This document shows positions 11,508 through 53,374 of a stretch of 64,000 bases of DNA, piece after piece (positions within the stretch are counted from its first letter, which is position 1; each line of letters starts with the position of its first letter). The DNA comes from Methanoregula boonei 6A8 (lineage in GTDB: Archaea > Halobacteriota > Methanomicrobia > Methanomicrobiales > Methanospirillaceae): contig NC_009712.1 in assembly GCF_000017625.1 (NCBI RefSeq), positions 2,170,001 to 2,234,000 on the forward strand, read 5' to 3'. Below the pieces are notes generated by a model that made no database searches, was not told where the DNA came from, and saw nothing but the letters and a program-made list of their open reading frames with translations. Both the position numbers and the translations under genes were made by a program.

Positions 11508-11848
11508 AAAAAAATTGGTCACCCCCCTCCCCCCACGTAGCGTTCCGCAAAAAAAATGATCGGTCCGATCGATTTCAAAATCGGTCGGGGTGACCTCTTT
11601 ACTTCCAGTATCGCAACATGTGCCTCCACTGGAGGTTCCGGCGAGACGGGGTGATCGGTCCGATCGTTTCTGAAATTGGCCGGACCAACCGATTCCGGAA
11701 TTGGTCGGGGCGGCCGCTCTTGCAGCAGTATCATAGGTAGCCCCCTCCCCCCACTTGCTGCTCCGCTAAAAAATTGATCGGACCGATCGACCTCATAATC
11801 GGTCGCCCGGCCCTTTGCTCGTGCAGGGAGAAACCATGGTTCCGAAAA
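11508..11848 (+). repeat. dispersed structured repeat, copy A
   Basis: About 340 bp of non-coding sequence that recurs at 36497-36842 (same strand) and 51803-52150 (opposite strand). It contains GATCGGTCCGATC at 11558-11570 and 11653-11665 and GATCGGACCGATC at 11776-11788. A 9-bp inverted repeat, GGTCACCCC (11517-11525) and GGGGTGACC (11587-11595), encloses the first module. A near-palindrome is centred on ATTCCGGAAT near 11697. The two ends are direct repeats of about 60 bp: a C-rich tract, a CCGC-plus-poly-A tract and then a GATCGG palindrome. It lies between the ends of two convergent genes. No terminal inverted repeats or transposase are seen. Confidence 0.88.
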
Positions 11849-36496: not shown

Positions 36497-36842
36497 TAAA
36501 AAAAACAGTCACTCCCCTCCCTCCACTGTGCAGCCCTTTAAAAAAATTGGCCGGACCGATCGATTTCAAAATCGGTCGGGGTGACCTCTTTTCTTCCAGT
36601 ACCACAACCAGTGTTTCCACTGAACTTTCAGGTGAGGCGGAGTGGTCGGTCCGATCGTTTCTGAAATTAGCCGGACCGATCAATTCCGGAATTGATCGGG
36701 GTGACCGATCGTACAGCGGGATCAGAGATAGCCCCCCTCATCCCGCTTTGCAATCCGCAGAAAAGTTGATCGGGCCGATCGATCTCAGAATTAGTAGCCC
36801 CGACCATGTGCTCACGCGAGCGGGGGGCCTCTTTTCCGGGAA
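36497..36842 (+). repeat. dispersed structured repeat, copy B
   Basis: This is homologous to copies A (11508-11848) and C (51803-52150). It contains a perfect 24-bp palindrome at 36676-36699 with half CCGATCAATTCC. A GACCGAT...ATCGGTC hairpin lies at about 36554-36577, a GGTCCG...CGGACC hairpin at 36648-36677, and GATCGGGCCGATC near 36768. It has the same C-rich and poly-A blocks at both ends as the other copies. It sits upstream of the pilin operon in the long intergenic region. Confidence 0.88.
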
Positions 36843-50450: not shown

Positions 50451-51731
50451 TCAGGTAAGGGGTGCCTTACAGTCGGGTTTGGCACTCCTGAGCCGCACAT
50501 CCACAGACTGTGCGTGAGCGGCAAGCCCCTCAGCGGTTGCAAGGGTTTCGATAATATCCCCAATGCTTTCAAGCCCCTCCCGGGACAGCATCTGGACTGA
50601 TGATGTTTTACAGAAATGATGTACATTGAGACCCGAGTACTGACGTGCATATCCAGCAGTCGGGAGGACGTGGTTGGTCCCTGATGCATAGTCACCGCAT
50701 GCAACCGGCGTATAGGGACCGACAAAGATGGAGCCCGCATTCCGGATCCCGCCAAGCACCGGGAGCGGGTCGGCAACCTGAATCGAGAGGTGTTCCGGGG
50801 CAACCGCGTTTGAGATCGCAACGGCCTCATCAAGATCCCCGGCCAGGATATATCCCGAGTTCTTAAGCGCCTGTGCCATTATTTCCTTGCGCGGGGCGTT
50901 TTCGGCCTGTTTTTTGATCTCGGCGCCAACCTCGTCGGCAAATGCGGCAGAGGTAGTGATGAGCACACATGCAGCATGCGGATCGTGTTCGGCCTGTGCA
51001 AGGATATCTGCCGCAACATAGGAAGGCACGGCATTTTCATCAGCAATGACCGCAATTTCGCTTGGCCCGGCCGGGAAATCGATCTCGGCATATTCCCGCA
51101 GCAGCATCTTTGCCGCGGTGACATACACATTCCCCGGTCCCACGATCTTTTCCACCGGCTCGATACTCTCGGTTCCTAGAGCCATGGCCGCAATTGCCTG
51201 GGCCCCGCCGCACTGGTATATCTCTTCGACCCCGGCAATATCGAGCGCGACAAGGGTGAGCGGCTGAATCGGGGGTGGTGAGCAGCAACAGATCTCCGGG
51301 ACTCCGGCGATTCGCGCCGGGATCGTGCACATAAGGGCCGTTGAGGGATACGCGGCACGCCCCCCGGGCACATACGCACCGACCCGTGAAAGGGGAGTGG
51401 TCTTCACGCCGAGCGTGATCCCGGGCTCTACCTCGGAAAGCCAGAGGCCCCGGGGGAGCTGGAGTTCGTGAAACCTGCTGATCCTGGCTTCAGCCTCCAC
51501 AAGGCATTCGGTAACTTTGGCATCGACCTGATCGTAGGCCGCCTCCCGGGCATCCTCGTCAACCGCAACCGAATCCAGGTGAACTTTGTCAAATTTTTCG
51601 GAAAGCTCGATGAGTGCGGCATCTCCACCCGATTTTACCTTCCCGATGATTTCCTGGACCGGGCCGTGAACCTCGTCCAGCCGGGATGTACGCCGCGAAA
51701 CCCACGTCTCGACATCTACCGCGCTCCACAT
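50451..51731 (-). CDS. hisD: histidinol dehydrogenase
   Basis: A 426-residue zinc and NAD enzyme that makes histidine from histidinol in two oxidations. YVPGGRAAYPST, QAIAAMALGTESI, VGPGNVYVTAAK, ADILAQAEHDP (zinc ligands) and PEHLSIQ are conserved, and the C-terminal GTNHVLPTAGYARQYSGL is typical. It is alone, away from hisC. The upstream gap holds repeat copy C. Confidence 0.96.
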   Translation of the reverse strand: MWSAVDVETWVSRRTSRLDEVHGPVQEIIGKVKSGGDAALIELSEKFDKVHLDSVAVDEDAREAAYDQVDAKVTECLVEAEARISRFHELQLPRGLWLSEVEPGITLGVKTTPLSRVGAYVPGGRAAYPSTALMCTIPARIAGVPEICCCSPPPIQPLTLVALDIAGVEEIYQCGGAQAIAAMALGTESIEPVEKIVGPGNVYVTAAKMLLREYAEIDFPAGPSEIAVIADENAVPSYVAADILAQAEHDPHAACVLITTSAAFADEVGAEIKKQAENAPRKEIMAQALKNSGYILAGDLDEAVAISNAVAPEHLSIQVADPLPVLGGIRNAGSIFVGPYTPVACGDYASGTNHVLPTAGYARQYSGLNVHHFCKTSSVQMLSREGLESIGDIIETLATAEGLAAHAQSVDVRLRSAKPDCKAPLT

Positions 51732-51802: not shown

Positions 51803-52150
51803 CGGCCTTTTTCCGGAACCGGGTCCCCGTCCTGCATGAGCACAGGGTCAGTCCGACAAATTTTGAGATCGATCGGTCCGATCATTTTTTTTGCGGAGCG
51901 GCAAGCGGGGGGTGGGGGACTACCTTCGATCCCGCTTCACGATCGGTCGCCCCGACCAATTCCGGAATTGATCGGTCCGGCTAATTTCAGAAACGATCGG
52001 ACCGATCTCCCCACTTCACCTGAACCTCCAGTGGAAACACACGTGGTAATACTGGATAAACGAGGTCACCCTGGCTTATTTTGAAATCGATCGATCCGAC
52101 CGATTTTTTTAGGAGGGGTACGCGGGGGGTAGGGGGGTGACCGGTTTTTT
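51803..52150 (-). repeat. dispersed structured repeat, copy C
   Basis: The minus strand aligns with copies A and B over the full length. The palindrome near 51952-51975 reads CCGATCAATTCCGGAATTGG from the minus strand, so one A:T pair has become a G:T-type pair. GATCGG-type palindromes lie at 51871-51883 and 51994-52007. The outer pair GGTCACCC/GGGTGACC is kept (8 bp). It lies between the hisD start and the end of the MOT1-type transporter gene, so this copy is beside the 5' end of one gene and the 3' end of another. Confidence 0.88.
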
Positions 52151-52234: not shown

Positions 52235-53374
52235 TTATTCCGGAATAGGTTTTGCAGGTTCCTTCTTCTCCCGCTGCCTCTTTAGCTGGATCAGGATATA
52301 GGCAATAACCAGTCCGATGATAAACGCAACGGTCATGGAAAGCAGCAGGGCAAGAACCCCGATCAGGCAGGTGACAAGAAGGGAATCGGTTTTCAGGCTG
52401 TACCGGCACATTTCAATTCCGACAAATATCAGGAGCGCCCCGAGAACACCCACGGCTACAATGGAGAGTACCTGGGGCGAGGTAAAGAAAAGCGCGAGTA
52501 CGATGAAGATCACCCCCGCAATGATGCTTGCCCCACCGGTTCTTGCCCCGTACCGGTACTGACCGGCAAGCCCTCCGGCCCCATGGCACATGGGAAAACC
52601 CCCAAACGGCACAGAGACGATATTCATAAGGCCGATGGACGTCGAAAATTTCTTGGGGGGCACATCTTTTCCAAAGAGATCTTTTGTCAGAAGTGAGGTG
52701 GCAAGGATCGCATTGGCGATGGTAAGGACTATCTGCGGGAGGACGAGGGTGGAAAGTGCCGACGGGAAATCCGAAAGGGGCGGGATCACCAGCTGGGGAG
52801 GAGGGATCAGGCTGATGGGGGGAATTCCATGCAGGAGAATCCCACCTATCACCCCCACCGCGATAACACAGATCGAGGAGAGATCAGGGACGTTCCGGTA
52901 CCGCACCAGCAGGACGAAGATTACGATCACCGCTATTCCCAGGACAAAAAAGAAAGAGTCCTTGATTACAAAATCCAAAGATGCCTTGAACAGGAGCAGG
53001 GCCAGGCCGAGCTGGATCCCCCGCACAACGCTCTCCGGCACCCATTTCCCAATTACCTCAAAAGAACGCCCGTAGCCAAGCAGAAGAAAAAGAACACCGA
53101 GGATGAGGCCGGCAGCCGCGATCTCGGTACTTCCTATTCCACCGGCTATGACAATCACGGCGATTGCCTTCATTGGTTCAAGGGGAATGGGCAGCCGGTA
53201 ATAAAGCCCGGTCAGGATAAACCAGATCCCGAAAAAAAGGAGGATGTAGCGTGGGTTTACATCGGATACCAGCGCAATGGCAAGGATGAGGGGGATAATC
53301 GTACCGAAATCCCCAAGCGACCCGGCAAATTCCGAGAGGGTAAACCGCAAAGGAACAATATCTTCCCCGGTCAT
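52235..53374 (-). CDS. MOT1-type molybdate/sulfate transporter
   Basis: A 379-residue membrane protein with about ten helices and the MOT1 family signatures EFAGSLGDFGTIIPLI and FGGFPMCHGAGGLAGQYRYG. MOT1 members carry molybdate with high affinity and related ones carry sulfate. With moaD, moaE and fdhD in the window, molybdate (or tungstate) is the likelier cargo, by inference. The C-terminus is charged and cytoplasmic. Confidence 0.87.
   Translation of the reverse strand: MTGEDIVPLRFTLSEFAGSLGDFGTIIPLILAIALVSDVNPRYILLFFGIWFILTGLYYRLPIPLEPMKAIAVIVIAGGIGSTEIAAAGLILGVLFLLLGYGRSFEVIGKWVPESVVRGIQLGLALLLFKASLDFVIKDSFFFVLGIAVIVIFVLLVRYRNVPDLSSICVIAVGVIGGILLHGIPPISLIPPPQLVIPPLSDFPSALSTLVLPQIVLTIANAILATSLLTKDLFGKDVPPKKFSTSIGLMNIVSVPFGGFPMCHGAGGLAGQYRYGARTGGASIIAGVIFIVLALFFTSPQVLSIVAVGVLGALLIFVGIEMCRYSLKTDSLLVTCLIGVLALLLSMTVAFIIGLVIAYILIQLKRQREKKEPAKPIPE

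Follow-up and report, generated by a model that had tools for sequence, protein, structure and literature searches.

Dispersed intergenic elements with phased palindromes in Methanoregula, possible docking arrays for a DNA-binding protein

What kind of element recurs three times, with the same complex palindromic architecture, within 64,000 nucleotides of the Methanoregula boonei 6A8 genome (the whole stretch analysed, hereafter the window)? The original prediction had described three non-coding copies in this window. They are real: three stretches of about 310-350 bp lie at the predicted places and can be aligned from end to end, with pairwise identities of 79-80% over a core alignment of about 295 columns. 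The predicted positions hold, but the right ends had been set slightly too far out, since a tail of about 35 bp (TGTGCTCATGCAGG...GGTTCCGGAAAAAG) follows the right end in some copies only. The features of the three copies are the following:

11508..11813, plus strand: element copy 1; the tail is present and runs to about 11848
11514..11587, plus strand: copy 1, left end block (C-rich tract, TTCCGC, A-run, dyad P3, spacer)
11558..11595, plus strand: copy 1, dyads P3 (11558-11570) and P4 (11583-11595), centres 25 bp apart
11596..11652, plus strand: copy 1, asymmetric core of 57 bp with the inverted repeat TTCCAGT...CCACTGGA
11653..11715, plus strand: copy 1, three-dyad array P5 (11653-11665), P6 (11678-11690) and P7 (11703-11715), in 25-bp steps
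11733..11805, plus strand: copy 1, right end block in direct orientation, 82% identical to the left block over 73 bp
11776..11788, plus strand: copy 1, dyad P9, inside the right end block
36505..36830, plus strand: element copy 2, aligned with the other copies
36549, 36574, 36644, 36669, 36694 and 36768, plus strand: copy 2, first bases of dyads P3, P4, P5, P6, P7 and P9
51830..52151, minus strand: element copy 3, between a MOT1-like transporter gene (52235-53374) and hisD (50451-51731)
51945..52007, minus strand: copy 3, three-dyad array P5-P7

Read on the plus strand, the element is thus made up of a C-rich tract, a CTCCGC-like stretch, A7, P3, P4, the 57-bp core, P5, P6, P7 and a second C-rich/CTCCGC/A7 block, which carries P9 and a weaker P10. 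The claim that the first block is repeated at the other end is correct, the two end blocks being direct repeats with identities of 82%, 72% and 76% over 73, 58 and 84 bp in copies 1, 2 and 3, respectively. The palindromes are not a product of chance: the genome contains 97 dyads of the 13-base form GRTCGNNNCGAYC against 6 for a reversed-pattern control, and 29 dyad pairs spaced by 25 bp against none in the control. Read directly, the 25-bp unit can also be seen as two overlapping inverted repeats with common arms, AAATCGGTCGG-N-CCGATCGATTT-CA. A CRISPR array was considered and rejected, as the sequence from one dyad to the next is itself palindromic and conserved from copy to copy, with no unrelated spacers. 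The presence of TTCCACTGGA in the core also led to archaeal origin recognition boxes being considered as a candidate identity. In two copies of the relative G059 (L029 and L023), several dyads read GGTCANNNTGACC in place of GATCGNNNCGATC, as if they had changed jointly within one copy.

The search of the single 2,542,943-bp contig of M. boonei, in which the window occupies 2,170,001-2,234,000, found 13 near-full-length copies together with fragments and a solo end block, as expected from the density in the window, and the alignment of these copies is not confined to the GATCGG motifs. All of them sit in gaps between predicted genes (as defined by ORF calls and Pfam rather than by annotation), at unrelated loci and in both orientations. 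The genes beside them are varied, including those for a histidine kinase, a SufC-like ATPase, GluRS, HisD and a PAN-like AAA ATPase, and this variety suggests no role at single genes. The copies are not clustered, the gaps from neighbour to neighbour resembling random spacing in a hand calculation; with orc1/cdc6 at about 1.3 kb, a hand count places 8 of the 13 copies within 0.4 Mb of it, a weak origin-proximal bias. The dispersed intergenic family is therefore borne out, and it reaches well beyond this genome. Among the 108 genomes of the taxonomic family, most of the relatives being incomplete, the same sequence (family A) was found elsewhere in G049 and G059 only. When the genome collection was scanned for the pattern, the carriers returned were Methanoregula sp. 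STF2_46, with positions that agree with G059, and a SPRUCE MAG of Methanoregulaceae, with positions that agree with G049; dyad-pair matches in other genomes look on inspection like unrelated sequence. Two further stretches near element copies (L009, 1857-2147, and L010, 2266-2422) resemble each other at the protein level (81% over 26 amino acids) and are possibly another repeat associated with the elements.

Elements of this kind are gained at new intergenic sites. The site of copy 3 is empty in three relatives (G049, G059 and G043), in which the flanking genes lie 104-127 bp apart, as measured between alignment ends, against about 545 bp in M. boonei. The G059 loci are, moreover, not orthologous to the M. 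boonei loci in the flanks compared. Apparent solo end blocks occur at 502 kb of the M. boonei genome and on contig 5 of G059, as would be expected from recombination between direct repeats; the former (G000:501982-502019, L117) seems to consist of an end block with the element tail, the core and the second block being missing. On contig 5 of G059 (L114), at about 500-1150 of the locus, the stretch that separates the solo end block from a full element contains small AT hairpins similar to GGATTTTTCTAAAAACC every ~30 bp, and hairpins like these are also found upstream of several M. boonei copies.

Empty sites, scattered unrelated loci in both orientations, non-orthologous locations and solo end blocks are what would be observed if this were a mobile element of a selfish, non-autonomous kind that depends on an enzyme supplied in trans, which possibly works on single strands folded into hairpins. 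In that case the enzyme would recognise the palindromes, the host would gain nothing and the spacing would be set by the needs of the enzyme. Other observations make this reading rather unlikely. As the original prediction had noted, there is no terminal inverted repeat: matches between the flanks of the same copy are no longer than those between flanks of different copies (6.15 against 6.44). Target-site duplications are likewise undetectable (6.38 against 6.67), with exact element ends that are uncertain. The search for a Y1 transposase (RAYT, PF01797) was negative in the complete M. boonei genome and in G059, G035, G038, G039 and G050, while control genomes were positive, and no transposase occurs among the flanking proteins scanned. 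Carriage by a plasmid, phage or virus was rejected, since the element has no match in plasmids, phages or IMG/VR. Lastly, the spacing is kept even in diverged copies. The mobile non-coding element initially proposed is partly supported: the empty site in three relatives shows insertion, but target duplication, inverted termini and a Y1 transposase were not detected.

The conservation of this spacing was studied in 19 copies from three genomes (M. boonei, G049 and G059). The distances are nearly fixed: 38-39 bp for P3-P4, 56-57 bp for the core, 63-65 bp for P5-P7 and 59-63 bp for P7-P9. Pairwise identity in the variable core loop averages 0.53, and the loop aligns without a single gap, unlike an 18-column tail, in which six gap patterns are found. 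Identities of the dyads lie between 0.81 and 0.86 in five of the seven, with 0.72 for P6 and 0.55 for P10, and one G049 copy (L020) is shortened on the left side of P3. A coding element was rejected, as each reading frame is open in at most one of the 19 copies. Phased dyads with conserved spacing are a feature of centromere-like or nucleoid-protein arrays. Alternatively, the fixed spacing might result from recent insertions of copies descended from diverged active elements, with no selection in place.

The locus upstream of sufC allows orthologous copies to be compared. The M. boonei copy at this locus (L003) lies at the same position as a G049 copy (L020) and has the same distinctive flank on its right, the left-hand flanks differ, and the element is missing from the sister genome G047. 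L003 has an identity of 74% to its G049 orthologue, against 86-90% to several other M. boonei copies. In the tree, L003 falls among eight M. boonei copies (support 80/82), and the G049 sufC copy joins three copies from G059 (88/89). Fourfold sites are 35% (hisD) and 60% (sufC) identical between the genomes. Selection on the sequence, homogenisation or both are needed to account for this pattern; homogenisation, which would proceed by gene conversion within each genome, has moderate tree support at this one locus. The same intergenic region is occupied in 4 of the 30 genomes compared, by family A in M. boonei and G049 and by a second family, B, in G035 (L101) and G050 (L073). When the proteins flanking family-A copies were compared with the 1.5-kb flanks of the G035 and G050 loci, sufC was the one sampled family-B locus with a clear orthologue next to it, and further positions common to families A and B were rejected.

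Family B belongs to a wider set of arrays in other Methanoregula genomes that share the 25-bp period and resemble family A in layout and in core motif (TCCGTCTG) but are built from different palindromes. In family B (sampled by alignment in G035, G038 and G050 and by reading in G039), units such as AAAATCGGATCCCGATTTTCGTACG number about three on the left side and about four on the right side, and both ends carry a block similar to AATCGCGATCACGATCGCGATCAAAAACCGTTCCGGAAAAATCG. The family-B query matched 27 of the 39 genomes of the genus, with up to 49 pieces per genome (pieces, not elements), and none of the three family-A genomes. A third type, C (G068-G071), is built from units such as TTGATTGAAATTTTTCAAGCAGACT and often has at least two cores, about 281 bp apart. 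Autocorrelation peaks at a lag of 25 in families B and C and in family A of M. boonei, and at 26 in the G059 copies of family A, whereas control DNA gives coding-type lags instead. The core motif takes the form CCGTCTGAAC in family A of G049 (with similar forms in G059), TTCCGTCTGTA in B and TCCGTCGTGAA in C, and most M. boonei copies carry a degenerate form of the extended motif. Since the bare string CCGTC is no more frequent than expected in the scanned loci, the weight rests on the extended motif adjoining the array. Apart from substitutions and flank gaps of one or two bases, the only difference between the orthologous arrays of the sister genomes G069 and G070 is one block, exactly 25 bp long. 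The homology of A, B and C rests on layout and a short motif, on which basis family A would be one lineage-specific version of an element class found throughout Methanoregula. Two other repeats were noticed in these genomes: a G-rich repeat at two places in G057 (L109 and L110, contigs 1 and 2), with GGAGGGGGGGTATGCYGGATACCCCCC beside TCTGATCGATTTGAAAATAAAA, and a common hairpin sequence, GCGCAAAACGCCTCGNCGGGTTTTGCGCTACGCACTTACC, just outside two arrays of G068 and G070 (L177 and L182), which looks like a separate dispersed repeat.

Whether such an element acts as RNA or as DNA can be approached through its base pairs. If it were a structured non-coding RNA gene or leader whose inverted repeats form hairpins, compensatory changes would be expected in the stems. 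Covariation of the dyad base pairs is not above shuffles. The 24-nt hairpins formed between neighbouring dyads, taken with the core stem, show slightly more pairing than shuffled sequences do (87.2% against 85.9%, 1/500) and contain 7 double-change pairs against 3.7 (4/500), a weak excess. This excess counts weakly against a protein-docking array, being expected of an RNA or of a cruciform. G-U and A-C mismatches number 96 and 77, a near-balance with little strand bias, so neither strand is clearly favored. Single strands fold moderately better than shuffles, and do so similarly on both strands; no Rfam family reaches its gathering score, with chance-level matches only below it. The constant length of the variable core loop also speaks against an RNA, as RNA loops usually tolerate length changes. 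Taken together, this evidence favors the DNA level. The structured RNA of the original prediction, weakened by shuffle-level covariation in the dyads, the small strand bias and the lack of an Rfam match, now seems improbable.

A transcription terminator or mRNA 3'-end element of the BIME kind, located downstream of genes, seems more improbable still. Stems followed by a T-run do occur on the minus strand of copy 1 (11570-11558 and 11792-11776), the region containing 3 terminator-like sites against 1.2 expected, and most copies follow the end of one gene or more. Nevertheless, the orientation relative to gene ends is mixed, the element is far too long and termination does not require fixed spacing over long distances.

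The explanation that we tentatively prefer, at slightly less than even chances, is that of an intergenic DNA element which gains copies and is kept as a phased array for a candidate dimeric DNA-binding protein. The maintenance of phasing despite sequence drift, the change in length by a whole unit and the constant period under new palindromes all suggest a complex of DNA with several protein dimers. In such a scenario the element would act at the DNA level, and dimers of a putative sequence-specific protein would sit next to each other on the phased dyads and assemble into an ordered complex around the core. Because the neighbouring genes are unrelated, the role would most likely lie in chromosome organisation or segregation and not in the control of single genes; nucleoid or chromosome organisation, one of the roles first suggested, appears to fit best with the fixed spacing and the array-plus-core anatomy. 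Gene conversion would homogenise the copies within a genome and, together with changes in the putative protein, could make the units of one lineage change together. A bolder version, a genus-wide archaeal docking system of tens of dispersed arrays whose palindromes would be replaced in concert as they co-evolve with a fast-changing putative DNA-binding protein, in the manner of eukaryotic centromere repeats and the proteins that recognise them, must be regarded as rather unlikely.

These elements are not described in the open-licence papers searched, and their nearest known kinds are the bacterial REP/BIME and BOX repeats. Like REP/BIME sequences and the REPINs of bacteria with RAYT transposases, they are dispersed intergenic palindromes in many copies, often 3' of genes and in modular arrays, but they have a fixed plan of ~310 bp, a core, direct end blocks, 25-bp phasing and an archaeal host. 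An assignment to REP/RAYT was rejected, given that the RAYT (Y1) enzyme that defines REPINs is absent from the complete M. boonei genome. The BOX elements of Streptococcus pneumoniae also combine dispersed non-coding modules, one of them in variable number, with strong inverted repeats, and in all of this the Methanoregula elements resemble them; yet BOX has other module sizes and no 25-bp phased array, and in Methanoregula it is the repeat sequence that varies by lineage under one layout. Archaeal MITEs are also short, non-coding, dispersed and variably present between relatives, and the empty MOT1-hisD site demonstrates insertion, but a MITE with inverted ends and target duplication was rejected because neither is seen. 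In parC/parS, in SegB sites and in eukaryotic centromere satellites, phased repeated dyads are found whose sequence may change fast and in concert. The likeness to such sites lies in phased dyads that could hold many protein dimers; the differences are the many dispersed copies, the weak origin bias and the lack of a linked partition gene in the flanks examined. The elements are numerous and follow one layout across a methanogen genus, their repeat changing between lineages while the period and the core are kept. As docking arrays, they would be a ready bait for a chromosome-organising protein of archaea; as mobile elements, they would be unusual in having neither inverted ends nor a known enzyme. 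Either way, the lineage-wide replacement of a repeat under a fixed layout makes it possible to test concerted evolution in the non-coding DNA of prokaryotes.
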